Shown piece by piece: positions 2,677 to 13,819 of a stretch of 50,594 bases of DNA (position 1 is the stretch's first letter; every line of letters begins with the position of its first letter). Source of the stretch: an uncultured Verrucomicrobiota bacterium (GTDB lineage: Bacteria > Verrucomicrobiota > Kiritimatiellia > RFP12 > UBA1067). Position numbers and translations under genes: made by a program. Location of the stretch: NCBI GenBank assembly GCA_945834475.1, contig CAMAHK010000010.1, positions 1-50,594 on the forward strand, in the 5' to 3' direction. A model generated the notes under the pieces. That model was given only the letters and a program-made list of their open reading frames with translations, was not told the DNA's origin and ran no database searches.

Positions 2677-2714
2677 GAGACTCGAAACCTGAGTGTCATT
2701 GATGGAGGTGTGAA

Positions 2715-3449
2715 ATGAGAAAGATGCTACTTGCCGTTTCAATCGTGTGTTTCGCCGCTTTGTTTGCCGGTGAAGACGACATGTCGTCTTTGTGTGATGA
2801 GGTGCTCGCCGAGATGCGAAATTCGAGAAAGGATGTGCATGGCGATTCGTCGTGGGCAAGGCGGTTGTTTGTGAATCTCGGATCGGACAGTAACCGTGTG
2901 TGCCAAGTGGCAGAGGAGGTTTATGCAAGGGCTGCTGATAAGATGGATCAGGAAGACGCGCTCTTGTTGATCAACAGGTATGGTTCTTTAAATCAGATGC
3001 CTTTTATCGAATCGTGCGTCACAAATGTTGCCTGTGGTCGCTACGCAATGCGAGTGCTGACCAAGGTTGAAGGCGTGACAAGCAATTCCGTCGTGCAGTT
3101 GGACCGTTTCCGTTCGTCTATGGCCGATGAATCGCAGGCGAACGAGTTCGCTGTCGACAGGGCGGGAGCAGTGAGCGACTTGTTGTTCGCTGCATCGAAG
3201 ATCGACAATTTGCCGCTTCGGAATCATATCGGGGCCTATGCGTGGAGTTGTTTAAGTACCGAGACAAACCAGGTGGCGACAATCGATTCAATGCTGGCAT
3301 TCTGTGATTTGGCCTATAAGTGGAGCCGTCGCCGTTTGAACGTCTTGCGACAGGCATATGCGCAGACAACAATCGAGGCAATGCGCGCTTGCTTGAACGC
3401 GCGCATTCAGCAACTCGAGTCCTATCCCGAAGCGAACTTGCCGGAGTGA
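2715..3449 (+). CDS. exported helical protein, unknown function
   Basis: 244 residues with a signal peptide (MRKMLLAVSIVCFAALFAG). The rest is predominantly helical and has the look of HEAT- or TPR-like helical pairs, but no repeat register is convincing. A strong ribosome site (GGAGGTG) ends 4 bases before the ATG, which decides the start. It is the last gene before a strong stem-loop at 3462-3493. With its two upstream neighbours it forms a set of exported proteins unlike the rest of the window. Confidence 0.7.
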   Translation: MRKMLLAVSIVCFAALFAGEDDMSSLCDEVLAEMRNSRKDVHGDSSWARRLFVNLGSDSNRVCQVAEEVYARAADKMDQEDALLLINRYGSLNQMPFIESCVTNVACGRYAMRVLTKVEGVTSNSVVQLDRFRSSMADESQANEFAVDRAGAVSDLLFAASKIDNLPLRNHIGAYAWSCLSTETNQVATIDSMLAFCDLAYKWSRRRLNVLRQAYAQTTIEAMRACLNARIQQLESYPEANLPE

Positions 3450-3461
3450 TAATTGCGTCTA

Positions 3462-3619: not shown

Positions 3620-3864
3620 GCGACTGAGAAAAACCGCTATTTTTCAAGATTAGGAAGCGAAGAATGTGGCTACGCAGGCCTATGCACTCTGGATACATTG
3701 TACCCAGACCTTACGTGCATCCGGCTTGTGTGCCCGTTCTTGGTATCTCCTAATTGGGCTCTTAGCGGTGCCTTCTCGGTGGTATCTCGAACGAGGCACG
3801 CTTCTTTTGCTGGCGGAGTTGTGTTGCCTGTCTTCTTGTGGCTGGCGGACGAAGGGCGATGCTA
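3620..3864. other. 245 bases with no recognisable gene
   Basis: Short open frames cross this stretch (for example 3666-3893), but none has a recognisable product, a good ribosome site or the codon usage of its neighbours. One of them overlaps the start of the methyltransferase gene by 29 bases. It may be decayed sequence at the left edge of the restriction-modification locus. Confidence 0.4.
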
Positions 3865-5733
3865 ATGTTGAAAGAGACGCTGAAGGCGAATGAGACGGTG
3901 AGGGCGAATGATGCCGAGCTGCTGGCACTGCGCGAGCATTTCGCAGGGTGTTTCACGAAAGAGGGTGCGTTTGACCTCAAGGCGTTTGAAAACCGAATCC
4001 GTGATCTGGTCGCCGTCACCGAGGAAGGGTATCAGCTTGATTTCCTCGGTAAGAACTATGCGCGGCTTTTGGCGAACGAGGAGACCGAGACCGTTATCGT
4101 TCCCGATGAGGCGCACAATGCGAAACCGGAGAATGCAAAGAGCCAGAACGTCTATATTTCGGGTGACAACCTTGACGCGCTCAAGCATCTTCTGAAGTCC
4201 TATGAGCGCGAAGTCAAGTGCATCTACATCGATCCGCCGTACAATACGGGGTCGGATGGTTTCGTCTACAACGACAATTTCAAGTTCAAGCCCGAAGAAC
4301 TCGCCCGTAAGCTTTCCATCACCGACGAGGAGGCGAAGAAGCTTCTTGATTTCGTCGGCCGAGGCTCGGCCTCTCATTCCGCTTGGTTGATGTTCATGTA
4401 TCCGCGACTCCAGCTCGCAAAGTCTCTTCTACGTGATGACGGCGTCATCTTCATTTCCATCGACGACAATGAACAGGCGAACTTGAAACTGCTGTGCGAC
4501 GATATTTTCGGGGAGCAGAATTTTTTGGCGAATATAATTTGGAAACGCAAACGCGGACGTGACAACTCGGCGCGTTGGTTTAGCAAAGCTCATGAATATG
4601 CGCTAGTATATGCAAGGCACGTAGACTCTTTTGATACGCATTTTCTTGAATTGGATGAAGAGACGAAGAAAGCGTATAAGAATTCCGATAATGATCCTCG
4701 AGGACCTCATAGGGATTTGGCGTGTTGGGCAAGAGGGACTCAAGGAGGTGTGCGTTATGAGTTTATAACGAAAGATGGAGTAAGATTTTCGGAACGCCTT
4801 TGGCTGTTTTCTAAGGTCAATATGGAGAAAATGGATCAGGACAATCGACTCGTGTTTCATGGTGACAACGTATATCGAAAATTATTCCTTGCCGAGAATG
4901 CAGGAAAAATACCTGAGACATTGTGGGATTCTGTTTCTAATGCAGCTAATGCTGCCGATGAGATCAAGGACTTGTTTGGCGCGATAGTTTTCGACACGCC
5001 TAAGCCTGTTCCTTATGTGACGGAGATGTTGAAAATCGCCACCGATGCGAATTCATTGGTTGTAGATTTCTTTTCAGGTTCAGCTACAACAGCAGATGCG
5101 ATCATGCGGATGAATGCAAAGGCGCTTGGCAAGGAAAATCGGCGATATATTCTTGTGCAACTTCCAGAAAAGTGCAATCCTGATTCTGTCGGGAAGAAAG
5201 AGGGGTATGAGACGATTGATCAGATCGGGCAGTCAAGGATTCTGAAATCTGCAGCGAAGATTAAAGCGGAGAACCCTTTGTTTTCGGGAGACCTCGGCTT
5301 TAAGCACTTCACGCTCGCGAAGCCGAGCGGTGAAGTGCTTGAAAAGATCGAGGACTTTGATCCGAAGTCAAGTGTGCTTGCGACGCAGAACATGTTGGAT
5401 GAATTTGGTGTGGGAACGGTTCTTGCAACGTGGCTGAATCATGACGGATATGGGCTGACGAAGGCACCCGAGGAAGTAGACCTAGAAGGGTACAAGGCGT
5501 ATCGATGCGGGAAGCACCTTTATCTTGTTCATCCGCTCGACCTGAATCATCCGTCGAAGAAGGTCGTCAAGGCGCTCTTGGAGAAGTACGAGAACGAGAA
5601 GGATTTTACGCCGGACAAGATCGTGCTGTTCGGCTATAGCTTCGGTTGGAAGGAGTTGGAGGAACTCGACACGAATCTCAAGAAACTGAAAGTGACGCGC
5701 AACATCACCGCTGACCTCGACATTCGTTACTGA
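3865..5733 (+). CDS. mod: type III restriction-modification DNA methyltransferase subunit (Mod)
   Basis: 622 residues; site-specific N6-adenine methyltransferase that also gives the type III complex its sequence specificity. DPPYNTG (catalytic motif IV) lies at residues 123-129 and FSGSATTADA (SAM-binding motif I) at 403-412. That order, catalytic before SAM motif, is the beta class expected of Mod. The stretch between them (about bases 4510-5040) is the target recognition region and is markedly AT-richer than the flanks. The start at 3865 is preferred because GAAGGG lies 8 bases upstream; ATG 3859 and GTG 3838 are in frame but worse placed. It sits 2 bases ahead of the Res gene, the standard mod-res order. 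Confidence 0.93.
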   Translation: MLKETLKANETVRANDAELLALREHFAGCFTKEGAFDLKAFENRIRDLVAVTEEGYQLDFLGKNYARLLANEETETVIVPDEAHNAKPENAKSQNVYISGDNLDALKHLLKSYEREVKCIYIDPPYNTGSDGFVYNDNFKFKPEELARKLSITDEEAKKLLDFVGRGSASHSAWLMFMYPRLQLAKSLLRDDGVIFISIDDNEQANLKLLCDDIFGEQNFLANIIWKRKRGRDNSARWFSKAHEYALVYARHVDSFDTHFLELDEETKKAYKNSDNDPRGPHRDLACWARGTQGGVRYEFITKDGVRFSERLWLFSKVNMEKMDQDNRLVFHGDNVYRKLFLAENAGKIPETLWDSVSNAANAADEIKDLFGAIVFDTPKPVPYVTEMLKIATDANSLVVDFFSGSATTADAIMRMNAKALGKENRRYILVQLPEKCNPDSVGKKEGYETIDQIGQSRILKSAAKIKAENPLFSGDLGFKHFTLAKPSGEVLEKIEDFDPKSSVLATQNMLDEFGVGTVLATWLNHDGYGLTKAPEEVDLEGYKAYRCGKHLYLVHPLDLNHPSKKVVKALLEKYENEKDFTPDKIVLFGYSFGWKELEELDTNLKKLKVTRNITADLDIRY

Positions 5734-5735
5734 AC

Positions 5736-8700
5736 ATGGAACTCGTCTTAGAGAAGTCGCTGGAACATCAGCAGCGCGCGGTTGACGCGGTAGCGGACGT
5801 CTTCACGGGCGTACGCATCGACGCGCCGACGCAATATTACGCAAATCCTGTCATTGATCTTACGGACGCGAGACTCTTTGAAAACGTCGCCGCCGTTCAG
5901 ACGACGCGTCAGGTGCCGGATGAGATGCGAGGGGCGACGCAATATCCTCACGCCTATCTTCCGCTTGACGTGAAGATGGAAACCGGGACGGGAAAGACGT
6001 ACGTCTATACGAAGACGATCTTTGAATTGCACCGGCGATGCGGATTCAACAAGTTCATTGTTGCCGTACCATCACTCGCCATCAAGGCGGGGACAGGACA
6101 GTTCATGACGGACGGGGCGGCACGCAAGCACTTTGCGGACGTGTGCGGATATGACGCGACCTTGGATGTGCAGGTTCTGGAGGCGGCGAAGTCCGCAAAA
6201 AAGACGCGGCGGGAGTCCTTCCCTGCCGCCGTGTGGGAGTTCGTCAAGGCGACGAAAGAGGCGCGGCGGCGCATCTCGGTTTTGGTCGTGAATATGCAGC
6301 TTCTCTCCAGTGCGAAAATGCTGGAGAAGGACTACGACTCGATGTTCGAGAATATGCGGCGTCCGTTCGATGCAATCAAGTCGACGCGCCCTATCGTCAT
6401 CATCGATGAGCCGCACCGTTTCGAGCGTTCGCAGAAAGCGTACGAGAAGATTGAGAAGGAGATCGCGCCGCAATGCGTCATCCGCTATGGCGCGACATTC
6501 CCGGAGGTCAGACTTGGCGGACGGAAAGGACAGCCCAAACCTAAGGACTATCGTAATCTTCTCTACGATCTCAATGCATGCAAGGCGTTCAATGACGGTC
6601 TCGTCAAGGGCATCTGCAAGGAGCATCTGGAAAGCCCGGAGGGTGGCAACGAGCGAATTAGCCTTATTGCGACCGAGACGCGTCGAACCGCACGTTTCCA
6701 GGTCGTTGCGAAAGGGAAGCCAGCGAAGACCGTTGAGCTCAAGGAGGGCGATTCTCTTGGACTCGTTCATGCTGCGTTCGAGGGAATCGAACTTATCGAG
6801 ATTGGTGCGAATGCCGTCAAGCTGTCCAACGGACTCGTGCGCAAACTTCATGATCCGCTTGCGGCGGGGCCGCACCTGAAGTCGTATCAGGACGGCATGC
6901 TGCAACTGGCGCTTGACAGGCATTTCGAGATGGAACGCGAGAACTTCAGGCGAGGAACGAAGATCAAGACACTTGCGCTCTTCTTCATTTCAGATATCCG
7001 ATCCTATCGCGACAAGGATGGTTATCTGCGCGAGCGGTTCGAGCGCTACTTGAAGGAGCGAATCGAGAAGATGCTTGCGGAGTTGACGCCGGGCGAGGCA
7101 GATTATCGGGCGTTCCTTGAGGCAAGCGCGGCGAACCTGTCACTTTGTCACGGTGGTTATTTTGCCGAGGACAAGACGGCGGCGGACGAGGCGACGGCGC
7201 AGGAGGTCGAAGAGATTCTCTTCGGCAAGAAGCAGCTTTTGTCGTTTAAGGACGCGGTGGGCGGTTGGAATGTGCGGCGGTTCCTCTTCTCAAAGTGGAC
7301 GTTGCGTGAAGGCTGGGACAATCCGAATGTGTTCACCATCGCCAAGCTCCGTTCGTGCGGCAGCGAGACGTCGCTTCTTCAGGAAGTCGGGCGTGGCTTG
7401 CGTTTGCCTGTGGATGAGAACGGCAACCGTGTTTCGGGTGAGGATTTTCGTCTCAACTATATCGTCGATTTTACGGAAGCTGATTTTGCCGAGCGGCTTG
7501 TCAACCAGATCAACGCCGAGGCCGCGACGCTCGCTGTCATCAGCGAGGAGAAGCTGAATGAGGTTGCGAAGAAGCGTGGTACGACAGCGGACGATCTCTT
7601 TGATGAGCTGCGTGCAAAGGGCTACATCGACCGAAAGATGAACATCCTTGAGGGCAAGCAAGGGGCGTTGGTTTCGGATTATCCAGAATTCGCGGCAGGT
7701 GCGGGACTCAAACGCGGCAGTGTACGTGATCGGAACAAGCGACCGGATGTTCGCGTTCATGTGCGCCAAGAGCAGTTTGCTGCACTTAAGGGGCTTTGGG
7801 AGAAACTGAATCAGAGGTATCTTCTCTACTTTAATGCTGAGACGGAGCGGATGCTGAAGGCGGCGTTGCCGTCAATCTGGGAGAACGATGTCTTTGTTGA
7901 GAACACGGTACAAAGCCGAGCGCAGAGCATACGTGCTGGTGAAAATGGCGTGCTGCTCACAACCGAGAGGTCTTCTCAATACCGGATAGACGGACGGCTG
8001 GCCTACGGCGAGTTCTTGAAGCGACTTTTTGATGTCACCCATGTGCCGGTGAAGATGTTGCATGACTCGCTTTGTCTCTACGCGAAAGCGCATGACGCTC
8101 CGAAAGCGGAATGGTTTACTGAATCGACGATCGTGAACTTCAAAAGTGCCCTTGACAGCTGGAAGGTCGAGAATCTGCAGGGATTCATTCATTATGAGCA
8201 TGCGGATGTTCCCGTGGTGAAGACGGAGCTGACGAATGCAGACGGTTCGGTTGTTGTGGATATCTCGCAGGGGCGAATCGGGAGACATCTTGCCGAAGGC
8301 GACACGAGCGCGAAGTATCTCTATGACGCGAAGGCTTACGACTCCGATCTTGAACTTGAAGACATTGCGTGTGACGCAATTGACGTGCCGGAGGTTGAGT
8401 CCGTTACGGTGTATGGCAAGATCCCGACGAAGAGCGTGGCGATCCCGACGATTATGGGCGGTACATACAGCCCTGACTTCATGTATGTCGTGAAGCGCAA
8501 GGGTGGCAAGAAGGAACTCAATGTTGTCATTGAGGTCAAGGATGTCGAAAAGGAGGCTGATCTCCATAAGAGCGAAGATATGAAGATCAAATGTGCCGAG
8601 GTCTTCTACAACATGCTCAGAGAGGATGGCATTGACGTTCGGTATCAGAAGCAGCTTAAGAATCAGAAACTTGCAGATATTATTGCGCAGGTGATTGAGA

Positions 8701-9161
8701 AATCCAACGGGCCGGAAGTTAAGGTCGAAGTCAACGAAGAGGCGAAATATAAGACGCACTTGCCGATCTATTCGACAGAGGTTCTCTGCGGACCTCTCGT
8801 TGACGGTCGGGAAGTCAAGGTTGATGGTTGGGTGAAAGTCTCGGGACATGGAAAGCTTGATTCGACTCAGTTCGTCGTTCGGACGAAAGGCCTTTCGATG
8901 GATGGTCTGATTCCCGAAGGTGCGTATGTCATTCTGCGGAAGATTGGTGGCGGCGATCTGGAGGGGAAGACTTTGCTCATTCAGCGCAATGACGTGTCCG
9001 ATCCCGAGAGCGGTGGCGCGTATACGATTAAGAAGTTCACGCGTGAAGGTAAGCGCGTTGTTCTGAAGGCAAGAGATTCTGAATATGATATTTGCGTTGA
9101 GAACGATGCGGAATACAGCCAGACGTTTCGCGCGATTGCGGAATACAAGTGCGTACTTTGA
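5736..9161 (+). CDS. res: type III restriction endonuclease subunit (Res) with C-terminal LexA/UmuD-like domain
   Basis: 1141 residues; the ATP-dependent translocase/nuclease partner of Mod. The superfamily 2 helicase core shows TGTGKT at 83-88 (Walker A), IIDEPH at 222-227 (motif II) and VGRGLR at 551-556 (motif VI). A PD-(D/E)xK nuclease follows: PD 913-914 and ExK 933-935. From my knowledge of the family, Res usually ends soon after this. Here about 130 more residues resemble a peptidase S24 (LexA/UmuD) fold: a Cys-Gly bond at 1018-1019, a Ser in GLSM at 1054, and a Lys in TIKKF at 1099. These match the cleavage site, nucleophile and general base of self-cleaving regulators. The fusion suggests self-cleavage or fold-mediated sensing that could regulate restriction; that role is inferred. 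Confidence 0.92.
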   Translation: MELVLEKSLEHQQRAVDAVADVFTGVRIDAPTQYYANPVIDLTDARLFENVAAVQTTRQVPDEMRGATQYPHAYLPLDVKMETGTGKTYVYTKTIFELHRRCGFNKFIVAVPSLAIKAGTGQFMTDGAARKHFADVCGYDATLDVQVLEAAKSAKKTRRESFPAAVWEFVKATKEARRRISVLVVNMQLLSSAKMLEKDYDSMFENMRRPFDAIKSTRPIVIIDEPHRFERSQKAYEKIEKEIAPQCVIRYGATFPEVRLGGRKGQPKPKDYRNLLYDLNACKAFNDGLVKGICKEHLESPEGGNERISLIATETRRTARFQVVAKGKPAKTVELKEGDSLGLVHAAFEGIELIEIGANAVKLSNGLVRKLHDPLAAGPHLKSYQDGMLQLALDRHFEMERENFRRGTKIKTLALFFISDIRSYRDKDGYLRERFERYLKERIEKMLAELTPGEADYRAFLEASAANLSLCHGGYFAEDKTAADEATAQEVEEILFGKKQLLSFKDAVGGWNVRRFLFSKWTLREGWDNPNVFTIAKLRSCGSETSLLQEVGRGLRLPVDENGNRVSGEDFRLNYIVDFTEADFAERLVNQINAEAATLAVISEEKLNEVAKKRGTTADDLFDELRAKGYIDRKMNILEGKQGALVSDYPEFAAGAGLKRGSVRDRNKRPDVRVHVRQEQFAALKGLWEKLNQRYLLYFNAETERMLKAALPSIWENDVFVENTVQSRAQSIRAGENGVLLTTERSSQYRIDGRLAYGEFLKRLFDVTHVPVKMLHDSLCLYAKAHDAPKAEWFTESTIVNFKSALDSWKVENLQGFIHYEHADVPVVKTELTNADGSVVVDISQGRIGRHLAEGDTSAKYLYDAKAYDSDLELEDIACDAIDVPEVESVTVYGKIPTKSVAIPTIMGGTYSPDFMYVVKRKGGKKELNVVIEVKDVEKEADLHKSEDMKIKCAEVFYNMLREDGIDVRYQKQLKNQKLADIIAQVIEKSNGPEVKVEVNEEAKYKTHLPIYSTEVLCGPLVDGREVKVDGWVKVSGHGKLDSTQFVVRTKGLSMDGLIPEGAYVILRKIGGGDLEGKTLLIQRNDVSDPESGGAYTIKKFTREGKRVVLKARDSEYDICVENDAEYSQTFRAIAEYKCVL

Positions 9162-9201
9162 TAACTCTCGGATTCTTTGTCCTCACTCGATATTCCTGAT
9201 T

Positions 9202-9210
9202 TGATATAAT
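9202..9210 (+). promoter_or_regulatory. extended -10 promoter, leaderless type
   Basis: TGATATAAT with TATAAT at 9205-9210, 7 bases before the ATG at 9218. There is no room for a ribosome-binding site after the expected transcription start, so the mRNA should be leaderless. It drives the zinc protein-SNF2-SWIM cluster. Confidence 0.75.
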
Positions 9211-9217
9211 ATTCGCC

Positions 9218-9799
9218 ATGAGTCAGGAATGGAATATCAAAAGTCGCGGACACGTGTGTTCGATCTGCGAGAAGCCGCTGGTGGACAAGACGCCGATGGT
9301 GAGTGCGCTCAAGGAAGTACCCAACGGCTATGAGCGACTGGACTGCCATCCCGAATGCTGGAAGGCCCAGGAACGGGACTGGACGCCGTTTTCGCAGTGG
9401 GATGGCGTGTATCTCGCGCCGCAGAAGGAAACGAAGCAGGAGCCGCTGAAGAAAGAGGACGCGGGCGAGCTTCTCCGTCAGCTCATCACGATGGACGATC
9501 CGGCGATGAAGAACGTCATCTACGTTCTCGCGGTGATGCTCGAGCGTTCGAAAATCCTGGTCGAGCGCGACCAGAAGGAACTTGAGGACGGTTCGATCCG
9601 CCGCGTCTACGAAGACCGCAAGCAGGGCGACACGTTCGTCATTCTCGATCCGCGCCTGCGTCTCGAAAATCTTGCCGAGGTTCAGGGCCAGGTCGTGGCG
9701 CTTCTCTCGGGTACGAAGACGCTCGGCGAAGTCGCTGAGGAAGGTGAAGGCCAAGGTGAAGGGGTGAGTGCTGGTGAAGCTGACACCCAAACAGCTTGA
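9218..9799 (+). CDS. small zinc-binding protein of unknown function
   Basis: 193 residues. The N-terminal 40 residues hold CSIC (positions 14-17) and CHPEC (about 48-52), a likely zinc-binding knuckle. The middle is charged and helical, and the C-terminus is low complexity, rich in Glu and Gly. Small proteins of this kind (a ribbon with CxxC and a C-terminal acidic tail) occur in PVC genomes without a known role. It overlaps the SNF2 gene by 32 bases in another frame, so the two are probably translated together. Zinc binding plus the SNF2/SWIM neighbours suggests a nucleic-acid role, which is inference. Confidence 0.75.
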   Translation: MSQEWNIKSRGHVCSICEKPLVDKTPMVSALKEVPNGYERLDCHPECWKAQERDWTPFSQWDGVYLAPQKETKQEPLKKEDAGELLRQLITMDDPAMKNVIYVLAVMLERSKILVERDQKELEDGSIRRVYEDRKQGDTFVILDPRLRLENLAEVQGQVVALLSGTKTLGEVAEEGEGQGEGVSAGEADTQTA

Positions 9800-12305
9800 G
9801 GCCTTGAAAATCGTTGCGGACGGGTGCTTTTATCCCGTTCTCGCAAAAGAAGAAGACGGCTGGTACGCCCGCTGGCGGGCGGTCGGTGCGCCGGATGGCG
9901 AGAGCGTGGACGGTTGGGTCGACGCCTATGTGCGCGAAGCCGCGATGACGCGGCTCACGGAAGATGCCGAAGAGCAGAAGCACGAGACGCTGCACGACGC
10001 CTGGATGATGGCGCTTAAGTCCCGTACGGGCCGCGTCGTCTGGAACGAAGCCGATTGCGTCGCGTTCGCGGCCGAGCTCGCGGAGTGGAGCGGTTCAGCG
10101 GAGAGCGACGTGAGCGCCCGCAAGGGCTTGGTGTTTCGTTTTTGTGCTGCGGGGAATAAGGAGGAAGATTCTGAACGACGCGACAAGAGTGTCGCGTCCC
10201 CGCATTCGGTGCCGAGCGAGGCGCAACGGGGGCGCGACACTCTTGTCGCGCCGGAGCAAAAACCTTTTCTTCTTCGCTGTGCCGCGCCGCGGGGACGTCG
10301 GGCGTTGCGGGCGCTCGGACAGGCGGCGTATGTCTGGGGCGTCTTGCGGGGACTTCGGGCCGATGCCGCGGGCGAGACGCACCGCGGTACGAGGGAGTTG
10401 AGTGTCTCGCTGACGCTGGCCGAGGCCGAGGACTTCCTGCGCATGGGCGCGGCGGCGCTCCTTGATGCTGGCTATTCGGTCGAAGGCCTGCCCGAACGCG
10501 CCCGTGTCACCGCCAGCGCGGAATTGCTGGGGGAGGCTGTTGCCGCGCCTCTCCGCGAGAAAGCGCAAGGTACGGTGAAATTGACCGTGCGGGTCGCGGG
10601 CGAAGTCGTCTCGGCGGAGGAAATTCGCTTTCTGCTCGATCAGGGCTCGACGCTCGTCTATTTCCGTGATCATTGGATCGAAGTTGACCGCGGCATTCTG
10701 AAAGAGGCGTTGCGGGCGTTGGAGAAGGGTGTCGGGAAGAGCGCGAACCTGATGTCGTTCGCCATGGGCATCGGCCACGTCGGGAACCTGGAGATCGAGG
10801 AACTCAAGGCGCACGGCTGGCTCCGAGGGCTGGTAAATCAGCTGAGGTCCGTACCGCGGTGCGTCTCGCCCGCGGCGGGTAAAGGCGGCTTGGAGACGCC
10901 GCAGGCGGGGACGCACTGCGGTACGGTGCTTCGTCCCTACCAGCGGCAGGGGGTTGCGTGGATCCGCTTCCTGACCGATCATGGCTTCGGTGCGCTCCTC
11001 GCCGATGACATGGGACTCGGCAAGACGGTTCAGGCGATCGCGTGGATTTTGGAGGAGTGGGATAAGGTAGGAGATCCTGAACGACGCGACAGGAGTGTCG
11101 CGTCCCCGGTGCTGATCGTCGCGCCGCTGACGCTGCTCGCGAACTGGCGGCGCGAGTTCGCGACGTTCGCGCCGTCGCTGTCGGTTTACGTGCATCAGGG
11201 CGGCCAGCGCCATCTCGAGAGCGGGTTTCGCCGGATGGCGGCGGAGACGGATGTCGTGCTTACGAGCTACAACCTGTTGGTGAAGGACTATTCGATCATC
11301 TCGAAGGTCGCGTGGTCGGCGCTGGTTCTCGACGAGGCGCAGGCGATTAAGAATCCCGACACGCAGGTGGCGCGGGCCGTCAAGGCCCTGTTGCCGCCGA
11401 AACGGCTGGCGCTGACGGGTACGCCGATCGAGAACACGGTGCGTGACGTGTGGTCTCTTGAGGACTTTCTTAATCCGGGTTTCCTTGGTGACCGCAAGTC
11501 GTTCCACGAGCGCTTCGTCAAGCCGCTCGCCTACGATGTCCACGCCGCTGCGGCGAAGCGCCTTTCCTACGCGATGGAACCGTTCATGCTGCGCCGGCTC
11601 AAGACCGATCCCGGCATTGCCGCGGAGATCGGCGAGAAGCGCGAGGTTCGCGAATACTGTCAGCTCGGACCCGACGAGCGCCGCGCGTACGAGGCGGCGC
11701 TGGCGGCGTTTCGCGCGACGGAGCACACGCCGGGCGATGCGTTCGCACTTCTGACGGAACTCAAGCAGATCTGTGACGGACGCCTGGAGGAAGGATGCGC
11801 GCTCGTCGAGTCGGAGTGCGGCAAACTCCGTCATCTCTTTGACCTCTTGGCGTCGATTTTCGAAAGTGGTGAGTCGGCTCTGATTTTCACGCAATACGCA
11901 AAAGTCGGCATCCATCTGCAGAGTGCGCTTCACGCGCGTTTCGGCAAGCGGTATCCGTTCCTTCATGGCGCGCTGACGGCGGCGCAGCGCGAGCAGGAGA
12001 TCCGCCGGTTCAACAGGCTGGGGCCGATGGCGTTCATCCTTTCGCTCAAGGCCGGTGGATTCGGACTCAACCTTACGAAGGCGACGCACGTCATCCATTT
12101 CGACCGCTGGTGGAATCCGGCCGTGGAAAACCAGGCGACGGATCGCGTACACCGTATCGGACAGACGAAGGACGTCTTCGTCCATCTCATGATCACGGAG
12201 GGGACGGTCGAGGAGCGCGTCGACGAGCTTTTGCTGAAGAAGTCCTCGCTCAAGGACCTGCTGGCCGACGGCTCGGCTTTCTGGGAGGCGGTGAAGCTGA
12301 CATGA
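9768..12305 (+). CDS. SNF2-family DNA translocase/helicase
   Basis: 845 residues from a GTG start. The SNF2 ATPase core fills the C-terminal half: DMGLGKT at 414-420 (motif I), DEAQ at 522-525 (motif II), and QATDRVHRIGQ at 789-799 (motif VI). The N-terminal 330 residues resemble the accessory region of bacterial HepA-like SNF2 proteins. Bacterial SNF2 proteins pump along duplex DNA and often pair with SWIM proteins, as here. Four palindromic elements are inserted in frame: residues about 134-162 (encoding RRDKSVASP), 200-208 (AGETHRGT), 361-386 (VPRCVSPAAG) and 436-447 (RRDRSVASP). None breaks a helicase motif. The gene ends in an ATGA overlap with the SWIM gene. Confidence 0.92.
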   Translation: MLVKLTPKQLEALKIVADGCFYPVLAKEEDGWYARWRAVGAPDGESVDGWVDAYVREAAMTRLTEDAEEQKHETLHDAWMMALKSRTGRVVWNEADCVAFAAELAEWSGSAESDVSARKGLVFRFCAAGNKEEDSERRDKSVASPHSVPSEAQRGRDTLVAPEQKPFLLRCAAPRGRRALRALGQAAYVWGVLRGLRADAAGETHRGTRELSVSLTLAEAEDFLRMGAAALLDAGYSVEGLPERARVTASAELLGEAVAAPLREKAQGTVKLTVRVAGEVVSAEEIRFLLDQGSTLVYFRDHWIEVDRGILKEALRALEKGVGKSANLMSFAMGIGHVGNLEIEELKAHGWLRGLVNQLRSVPRCVSPAAGKGGLETPQAGTHCGTVLRPYQRQGVAWIRFLTDHGFGALLADDMGLGKTVQAIAWILEEWDKVGDPERRDRSVASPVLIVAPLTLLANWRREFATFAPSLSVYVHQGGQRHLESGFRRMAAETDVVLTSYNLLVKDYSIISKVAWSALVLDEAQAIKNPDTQVARAVKALLPPKRLALTGTPIENTVRDVWSLEDFLNPGFLGDRKSFHERFVKPLAYDVHAAAAKRLSYAMEPFMLRRLKTDPGIAAEIGEKREVREYCQLGPDERRAYEAALAAFRATEHTPGDAFALLTELKQICDGRLEEGCALVESECGKLRHLFDLLASIFESGESALIFTQYAKVGIHLQSALHARFGKRYPFLHGALTAAQREQEIRRFNRLGPMAFILSLKAGGFGLNLTKATHVIHFDRWWNPAVENQATDRVHRIGQTKDVFVHLMITEGTVEERVDELLLKKSSLKDLLADGSAFWEAVKLT
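10167..10254. repeat. family B palindromic element, two opposed copies
   Basis: Core GCGACAAGAGTGTCGC, followed by GTCCCCG; the second copy runs in reverse (GGCGCGACACTCTTGTCGCGCC). Inside the SNF2 gene in frame. Confidence 0.85.
10366..10391. repeat. family A palindromic element, half copy
   Basis: CCGCGGGCGAGACGCACCGC then GGTACG. Inside the SNF2 gene in frame; encodes AGETHRGT. Confidence 0.8.
10849..10926. repeat. family A palindromic element, full inverted pair
   Basis: Starts CCGTACCGCGGTGCGTC, ends with the near reverse complement GACGCACTGCGGTACGG. 78 bases, so 26 codons exactly, inside the SNF2 gene. Confidence 0.9.
11073..11109. repeat. family B palindromic element, single copy
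   Basis: GATCCTGAACGACGCGACA, then GGAGTGTCGCGTCCCCGG. Its left flank matches that of the copy at 10167. Inside the SNF2 gene. Confidence 0.85.
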
Positions 12306-12889
12306 GCAAGAAGCGCTACCCGATTCGTGTGCCACGCTATGCGGCGGGCATCCGCGCCCAGGAGTCCCGCTCCGGGGCGGATCGCTGCTGGTGGGCGAAG
12401 CGCTGGCGGTCCGTTCTGGAGGGCATGGGACTCAAGGGACGTCTTGGACGCGGACGAAACTATGCGATGAGCGGACAGGTCGTGCGGATGGAATTCGAGG
12501 GGAATGAAATTCGTGCGGCCGTGCAGGGAACGCGCGAAGAGCCGTATGAAATCGGCATCGTCTTCCGCAAGCCCGACGATGCGGCGCATGATCGTATCGT
12601 CGCCGCGCTCAGGGCCGAGCCGATGCTGGTGGCGCGACTGTTGGCGGACGACCTACCGCTCGAGGTCGAGGCGCTTTTCAAGGCGGAGGGGTACGACTTT
12701 TTCCCGGGTGGCAAGCTCGGGCCGGGGAAGTACGACATGACGACGCGCTGCAGCTGTCCCGACTACGCGAACCCCTGCAAGCATTCGTGCGCGGTCTTGT
12801 ACGTGCTCGGGGAAGAAATCGCGCGGCGTCCCGCGACGCTCCTGGAACTGCGCGGCCTGCAATTGGAGGAACTGTACGATGAAGATTGA
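12302..12889 (+). CDS. SWIM zinc-finger protein
   Basis: 195 residues. The SWIM motif CxC...CxH is visible near residues 151-163 (CSCPDYANPCKH). SWIM domains bind zinc and usually DNA, and bacterial SWIM proteins are commonly encoded next to a SNF2 helicase. The ATG at 12302 overlaps the SNF2 stop (ATGA), which fixes the start; the longer open frame upstream runs inside the SNF2 gene. The protein stops where many relatives continue, and the next small gene in another frame seems to encode the missing tail. Confidence 0.88.
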   Translation: MSKKRYPIRVPRYAAGIRAQESRSGADRCWWAKRWRSVLEGMGLKGRLGRGRNYAMSGQVVRMEFEGNEIRAAVQGTREEPYEIGIVFRKPDDAAHDRIVAALRAEPMLVARLLADDLPLEVEALFKAEGYDFFPGGKLGPGKYDMTTRCSCPDYANPCKHSCAVLYVLGEEIARRPATLLELRGLQLEELYDED

Positions 12890-13019
12890 GTCCCCCGTAT
12901 TGAAGCGTCTCGGTCCCGTGCCATTCTGGCGCGGCGAGAAGAAGTGCCTTGCCGAGCTGAACCGCATCTACAAGAAGGCGCGGGAGGCGGCCGAGGCGCG
13001 CCTGACGCGGGTTCCGTAA
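12879..13019 (+). CDS. 46-residue protein, probable detached tail of the SWIM protein
   Basis: Begins MKIESPVLKRLGPVPFW and ends EARLTRVP, rich in Lys and Arg. It overlaps the SWIM gene by 11 bases in a different frame. The LGPVPFWRGE segment recalls the C-terminal section of longer SWIM proteins from memory, so this may be a split product, a ribosomal-frameshift extension, or a true small gene. Codon usage matches its neighbours and translation coupling is plausible. Confidence 0.55.
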   Translation: MKIESPVLKRLGPVPFWRGEKKCLAELNRIYKKAREAAEARLTRVP

Positions 13020-13051
13020 TCTCTTCTTTCCGCCAAGGGCCGCCGAGGATT

Positions 13052-13060
13052 TGCTATAAT
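13052..13060 (+). promoter_or_regulatory. extended -10 promoter of dapB, leaderless type
   Basis: TGCTATAAT, with TATAAT at 13055-13060 and only 6 bases before the dapB ATG at 13067. This placement supports the short dapB start over the longer upstream open frame. Confidence 0.75.
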
Positions 13061-13066
13061 ATAGGC

Positions 13067-13819
13067 ATGAAAATTGCAATCGTTGGCGCCGCGGGGCGCA
13101 TGGGGCAGAAGCTGATCGAGCTCGCCAAGGGAACGGATCTTGAAGTCGTCTCGAAAGTCGACGTGGCGGAGGGTTTTGACCGGACATGGTCGGATGACGT
13201 CGAAGGTGTCATCGACTTTTCGTATCACGCGGGTGTGCCGGCCGCGATCACGAAGGCCGCCGAGCAGGGGATCGCCTACGTGATCGGCACGACGGGTCTC
13301 ACGGACGAGGAACAGAAGGCCGTCGACGCGGCTGCGACGAAGATACCGGTCGTCCAGTCAGGGAACTATTCGCTGGGAGTCAACCTGTTGCTGGAGCTGG
13401 TGCAGAAGGCGGCGACGGTGCTGGGGCCCGAGTATGACATCGAAGTCACCGAGATGCACCACCGTCACAAGAAGGACGCGCCGTCGGGCACCGCGCTCAT
13501 GCTGGCCCGCGCGGCACATGCGGGACGAAAGTTCTCCTGCGCGGCTACGCCGGCTACGGAGGCCGAATGCTTTGTATTCGGCCGTCAGGGCGACATCGGG
13601 GAGCGTCCGCAGGGCGAGATCGCCATCCACGCGTTGCGCGGTGGCTCGGTTGTCGGCGACCACACGGTGATGTTCGCGGGAGATCTTGAGCGTGTCGAGA
13701 TCACGCACAAGGCGCAGGACCGCGCGGCGTTCGCGGCGGGGGCTCTCAAGGCTCTCTCTTGGGCGAAGGGCCGGCCGTCGGGCATCTACACGATGCGCCA
13801 CGTTCTGGGCTTCGTCTGA
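13067..13819 (+). CDS. dapB: 4-hydroxy-tetrahydrodipicolinate reductase
   Basis: 250 residues; reduces hydroxy-tetrahydrodipicolinate with NAD(P)H in the diaminopimelate/lysine pathway, in the cytoplasm. The Rossmann motif GAAGRMG lies at residues 7-13. The conserved active-site stretch is present around residues 132-146 (MHHRHKKDAPSGTA), including the His pair and the Lys of KDAPSGT. The C-terminal substrate-binding region ends in GIYTMRHVLGF, the usual DapB ending. Start chosen from the promoter just upstream. It stands alone between two promoters. Confidence 0.95.
   Translation: MKIAIVGAAGRMGQKLIELAKGTDLEVVSKVDVAEGFDRTWSDDVEGVIDFSYHAGVPAAITKAAEQGIAYVIGTTGLTDEEQKAVDAAATKIPVVQSGNYSLGVNLLLELVQKAATVLGPEYDIEVTEMHHRHKKDAPSGTALMLARAAHAGRKFSCAATPATEAECFVFGRQGDIGERPQGEIAIHALRGGSVVGDHTVMFAGDLERVEITHKAQDRAAFAAGALKALSWAKGRPSGIYTMRHVLGFV

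Follow-up and report, generated by a model that had tools for sequence, protein, structure and literature searches.

A predicted S24 autoprotease domain at the C-terminus of a type III restriction subunit, and its exchange among unrelated restriction enzymes

In a 50,594-nucleotide stretch of contig CAMAHK010000010.1 (hereafter the window), part of a rumen-bacterium genome, the type III restriction subunit Res was found to carry a C-terminal S24 domain of the kind present in LexA, UmuD and phage CI. Res comprises 1141 amino acids (5736..9161; this and all other features of Mod and Res with coordinates below lie on the + strand), and the S24 domain spans residues ~1003–1141 (8742..9158). Related tails were found on type I, type II and other type III enzymes, and between some of these the tail has been exchanged. 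The interpretation favored here, to which a probability of roughly 45% was assigned, is that the tail is a working S24 autoprotease on a complete EcoP15I-like Res, and that self-cleavage stimulated by RecA would lower restriction and thus act as built-in alleviation.

The S24 domain and the enzyme that carries it

The initial annotation had read the last 130 or so residues of Res as an S24 fold, and profile and structure comparisons bore this out. Taken alone, the tail of the window gave a borderline Pfam score: Peptidase_S24 matched Res residues 1042–1118 with 21.6 bits, slightly below the cut-off of 23.3, whereas in the genome search the score was 25.2 bits and passed it. Tails related to that of the window mostly scored higher than this cut-off, with a maximum of 53 bits. 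When the PDB was searched with a profile of 23 related tails, only LexA, UmuD and lambda CI were matched (best E 7e-6).

An AlphaFold2 model of residues 1001–1141, obtained from a 38-row alignment that included phage repressors, a caveat that applies to the model as a whole, had a mean predicted local distance difference test score (pLDDT) of 81. A four-sequence alignment yielded a model with a pLDDT of 34, which was not usable and advises caution with the fold prediction. Foldseek searches with the first model returned LexA at E 3.4e-7, and LexA, lambda CI and UmuD were all matched with a probability of 1.00; the matches included structures solved on RecA filaments. Judged from profiles and the model, the C-terminal domain of Res is a genuine S24 domain, well past chance similarity.

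The predicted self-cleavage site, Cys1018-Gly1019 (8787..8792), lies in STEVLCGPL (residues 1013–1021), the predicted nucleophile Ser1054 (8895..8897) in the G-x-S-M motif GLSM (1052–1055), and the predicted general base Lys1099 (9030..9032) in TIKKF (1097–1101). All three, together with the spacing of 36 residues between Cys1018 and Ser1054, were located in the translation exactly where they had been placed at the outset. Ser1054 and Lys1099 are separated by 45 residues, compared with 37 in LexA and UmuD, and the alignments put an insertion of eight residues before the lysine, near DPESGGAY.

Conservation was counted over 31 tails, 30 of which cover the cleavage site. The serine and the lysine were invariant (31/31, and likewise in all 38 alignment rows, phage repressors included), glycine occupied P1′ in 29 of the 30 covering tails, and P1 was alanine or cysteine in 29 of 30. 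The initial annotation had stated that its reading would be refuted if close homologues lacked Ser, Lys or Cys-Gly; the conservation observed was in its favor. The rate of nonsynonymous substitution (dN) in the tails was far lower than the synonymous rate (dS), although dS was saturated.

This conservation bears on a docking role for the tail. The S24 domains of LexA, UmuD and CI dimerise, and in Res the domain might link two Mod–Res complexes, or bring the enzyme to RecA filaments or to further S24 proteins, cleavage then being infrequent or of no importance. Dimer formation needs neither the Ser-Lys dyad nor the scissile glycine, yet practically all tails retain both, and such a role was considered distinctly unlikely.

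Other readings of the C-terminus were rejected. A chance motif match was dismissed because profiles, fold and conservation agree. The tail is not a whole LexA or UmuD, as it ends a 1141-residue Res and scored 18.9 bits with the lexA model, against a cut-off of 110.95; LexA as a whole protein has an N-terminal winged helix-turn-helix, and UmuD is small, with UmuC as its partner.

The remainder of Res corresponded to a type III restriction subunit, as had been annotated initially. The type III endonuclease model NF012027 was matched over its whole length by residues 1–989 (1076 bits), and the solved EcoP15I Res (4zcf) aligned over residues 4–984. The helicase motor domain (ResIII, residues 79–256; 5970..6503) contains Walker A METGTGKT at 81–88 and DEPH at 224–227, and the endonuclease domain (RE_endonuc, residues 860–975; 8313..8660) contains PD at 913–914 and ExK at 933–935, all of these motifs being intact. 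Mod, the DNA methyltransferase of the system (3838..5733), lies directly upstream, with two bases between its stop and the start of Res. It has 631 amino acids, DPPY at 132 and the domains N6_N4_Mtase and T3RM_EcoP15I_C, and was classified by PADLOC as MTase_III (E 1e-182). Helicase and PD-ExK endonuclease were thus found in one Res chain next to Mod, as in EcoP15I-like systems, and the core (residues 1–988) is predicted to be an ordinary enzyme of this type with DNA-cutting activity.

The closest Res proteins lacking S24 (loci L039 and L042) stop at about window residue 988, and the Res-like plasmid matches, among the matches listed, all end at or before ~992. By these comparisons, the S24 tail has been added to an otherwise standard enzyme. 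The Res-S24 fusion was found intact, at 78% identity, in two further assemblies, L003 (goat omasum) and L004; L190 and L101, apparently the same contigs as L003 and L004, respectively, were counted with them only once. An assembly artefact was ruled out because the intact fusion recurs in these two assemblies.

Distribution and exchange of the tail

In the initial annotation, no standard type III Res with an S24 domain was known. This stood for the close relatives ending near residue 988; the domain is not unique to this Res, however, since tails occur on enzymes of types I, II and III. Tails were identified on type I HsdR subunits of several families (L022, L193, L194, L197), on a protein with a type I specificity domain (HsdS, L024), on AlwI-type type II nucleases (L092, next to a D12 methyltransferase, and L196), on IIG-like enzymes (L198, L199) and on other type III-like enzymes (L026, with its Mod, L029 and L191). 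They were also present on HNH and methyltransferase-HNH proteins (L030, L098, L100, L200), on a DEAD/MZB helicase of ~1980 amino acids (L023, with L025 and L027 of equal size and group) and on Schlafen-group-3 helicases (L028, L031, L034 and others of equal size).

All identified partners were restriction or defence-type enzymes, and in every one listed the tail was C-terminal. In the tree, the tail of the window fell inside a supported set of eight together with tails from type I, II and III enzymes. Its range of partners marks the tail as a module that is exchangeable among enzymes of types I, II and III.

One contig (L032) has two S24-tailed defence-type genes near each other (7501–9885 and 11322–13607), one matching the Schlafen-group-3 helicases in size and tail group, the other encoding a methyltransferase-HNH protein.

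The genome searches covered the Verrucomicrobiota/Kiritimatiellota. At E ≤ 0.001, the tail was present in 16 of 193 genomes of the class and in 28 of 388 of the phylum, where the weakest matches were short open frames of repressor size; at E ≤ 1e-12 it was present in 16 of 162 genomes of the order. Res-S24 was not found on viral contigs, the tail had no match among phage records, and plasmid records contained only one tail, from Halomonas. A contig from a viral collection (L108:5293-6456) encodes a 388-amino-acid protein with a related tail, in a gene row with an SNF2-type helicase.

Tails have been exchanged between unrelated enzymes in the genus of the window, as judged from DNA identity. 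Two HsdR subunits of different families, with cores 28% identical, share 94.8% DNA identity from 414 nucleotides before the stop onward. An AlwI-type and an IIG-like enzyme, whose cores have no detectable similarity, are 96.5% identical from 398 nucleotides before the stop. The shared DNA of the swapped tails starts in FREYLPLYSLRAAC|G, slightly upstream of the predicted cleavage site, and DNA identity is absent upstream of that point; the exchanged unit therefore consists of the cleavage site and the catalytic domain.

The window itself showed a related pattern. The DNA alignment of its Res with the orthologue L003 extends to codon ~989 and hardly further, whereas a stretch encoding S24 (8850..9048) is 83% identical to the tail of the unrelated enzyme L191. 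At the protein level, residues 1039–1105 are 85% identical to L191 and 67% identical to the Res orthologue. A higher rate of change in the tail could account for some of this pattern, but not for the closer match to L191. As the tails are swapped as a unit between unrelated enzymes, their function should be independent of the core.

The AlwI-type and IIG-like genes come from two species of the genus, in which they lie at a common chromosomal site (L204, G279:C22, and L205, G239:C61). The tail and ~11 kb of 3′ flank are common to both, at roughly 92–97% identity, and the cores differ. Because this long flank is shared, the cores appear to have been replaced while tail and chromosome stayed, as at a hotspot. 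The site also provides the case for a tail that has no protein function and is kept mainly as a recombination anchor, its shared 3′ DNA letting unrelated restriction systems replace one another at one site. The active and cleavage sites are conserved among proteins too diverged for homologous recombination, though, and in L206 the same IIG-like enzyme and tail as in L205 stand before a different 3′ flank. This explanation was judged highly improbable.

A broader proposal joins both aspects. In it, a self-cleavage cassette that is mobile and independent of its partner is shared and exchanged by restriction enzymes of types I, II and III and by other nuclease or helicase defences in Kiritimatiellota and relatives. 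The cassette would couple immunity directly and post-translationally to RecA filaments, and its shared DNA would also let restriction systems replace each other at a chromosomal site. This proposal was considered less likely than not.

Two repeated stretches were noted in the window. Positions 2688–3452, upstream of Mod, have a 98% identical copy on another contig of the genome (C80:184-948), and 10848–10925 (~78 bases, inside the open reading frame 9768–12305) recurs, ~90% identical, on three or more further contigs of the genome.

A proposed restriction-alleviation fuse and its rivals

The presence of the module on many DNA-cutting enzymes, together with its independence of the partner and its conserved protease site, suggests that it controls the activity or amount of these enzymes. 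LexA-like S24 regulators self-cleave on RecA bound to single-stranded DNA (RecA-ssDNA; PMC9578287), and in LexA and LexA-like proteins the cleavage exposes a ClpXP C-degron beside the cleavage site (PMC5742171). Type I restriction is suppressed following DNA damage (PMC3874165), and HsdR is removed by ClpXP (PMC4231737). Regulation of restriction through cleavage stimulated by RecA, as suggested in the initial annotation, is plausible on these grounds. Taken together, these precedents favor an alleviation fuse; for Res we infer the cleavage itself, RecA as its trigger and the direction toward lower restriction.

Under this interpretation, Res would stay intact in normal cells. DNA damage or self-restriction would give rise to RecA-ssDNA filaments, which would stimulate the predicted cleavage at Cys1018-Gly1019 through Ser1054 and Lys1099. 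Restriction would then be lowered, most likely because a housekeeping protease recognises the newly exposed C-terminus, as happens in LexA. Acting in this way as a fuse, the tail would spare the chromosome during the period in which repair DNA is still unmodified, and unrelated type I, II and III enzymes would bear and swap the same fuse. Genes for RecA and for a UmuD-like protein are present in the genome, and this was counted as support for a fuse triggered by RecA.

Two full-length RecA-family genes were found (G000:C15:20138-20923 and G000:C53:4887-5669), reflecting a true duplication or, alternatively, an assembly of mixed origin. The UmuD-like S24 frame (L038, G000:C95:6271-7220) is followed by an apparent UmuC fragment, assigned by inspection only. 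No LexA of the source genome scored above its model cut-off.

Certain points weigh against the fuse. By the domain matches, the cleavage product 1–1018 is a complete canonical Res, and an off-switch therefore requires a further step such as degradation; this is the main weakness of the proposal. On the P side, STEVLC in the window resembles a degron less closely than does the LxAA found in most relatives, where the cleavage site itself also accounts for the AA. Moreover, EcoKI alleviation in E. coli proceeds without a need for LexA cleavage or SOS induction (PMC11109961).

The completeness of the product is the basis of a serious rival, in which the tail works as an on-switch. The uncleaved tail would dimerise or fold back and hold the nuclease inactive, until RecA-stimulated cleavage upon phage attack or damage frees an active Res 1–1018. 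This product would retain all domains of canonical Res, which ends at ~988 in relatives and at ~970 in EcoP15I, and UmuD is activated by cleavage to UmuD′ (PMC9578287). Freeing a nuclease on an already damaged chromosome would, however, be dangerous, and tails also occur on HsdS, where their release has no obvious activating effect. The on-switch was regarded as unlikely, yet as deserving serious weight.

The trigger may also be dispensable. LexA S24 cleavage is intramolecular and can proceed without RecA at high pH, so that the tail might cleave itself soon after synthesis, either as a maturation step or as a timer delaying restriction in a new host. A delay of Res, through translation of EcoP15I res, is known in type III establishment (PMC12707154). 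Known S24 regulators are nevertheless slow without a trigger, and no sequence feature of the tail indicates faster cleavage, which makes constitutive processing very unlikely.

Comparison with known systems

To our knowledge, the way in which cells are protected from their own restriction enzymes during repair has been worked out mainly in EcoKI, in which an external protease acts. If the fuse is real, a self-cleaving tail that serves many types of enzyme would solve the problem of self-restriction during repair in a general and transferable way, and RecA filaments would be linked directly to a restriction nuclease with no transcription involved. The shared tail suggests a common switch tying restriction to DNA damage. 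In the open-licence literature searched, no description of S24/LexA domains on restriction enzymes was found, and a 2025 review of restriction-modification does not mention LexA, S24 or autoproteolysis.

With the S24 domains of LexA, UmuD and lambda CI, the Res tail shares the fold, the G-x-S-M nucleophile, the lysine base and an Ala/Cys-Gly site 36 residues before the serine. It differs in the eight-residue insertion before the lysine and in its setting: in those proteins S24 is attached to a DNA-binding domain or works with a polymerase partner, whereas in Res it is carried by a nuclease-helicase, for which self-cleavage and a response to RecA are predicted. With EcoP15I-like systems, the window shares the Mod–Res pair, the helicase and endonuclease domains and the full-length match over residues 1–989, but EcoP15I and the near relatives examined lack the extra C-terminal S24 domain of ~150 residues.

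The predicted outcome is the same as in EcoKI alleviation by ClpXP, namely a nuclease removed or reduced and a chromosome protected after damage (PMC3874165, PMC4231737). In EcoKI, by contrast, the enzyme gives the signal as it translocates on unmodified DNA, and ClpXP acts as the agent; self-cleavage plays no part, and SOS induction is not required (PMC11109961). S24 domains and type III enzymes are both already known; the S24 autoprotease as a transferable tail of restriction enzymes would be a new setting for this domain.
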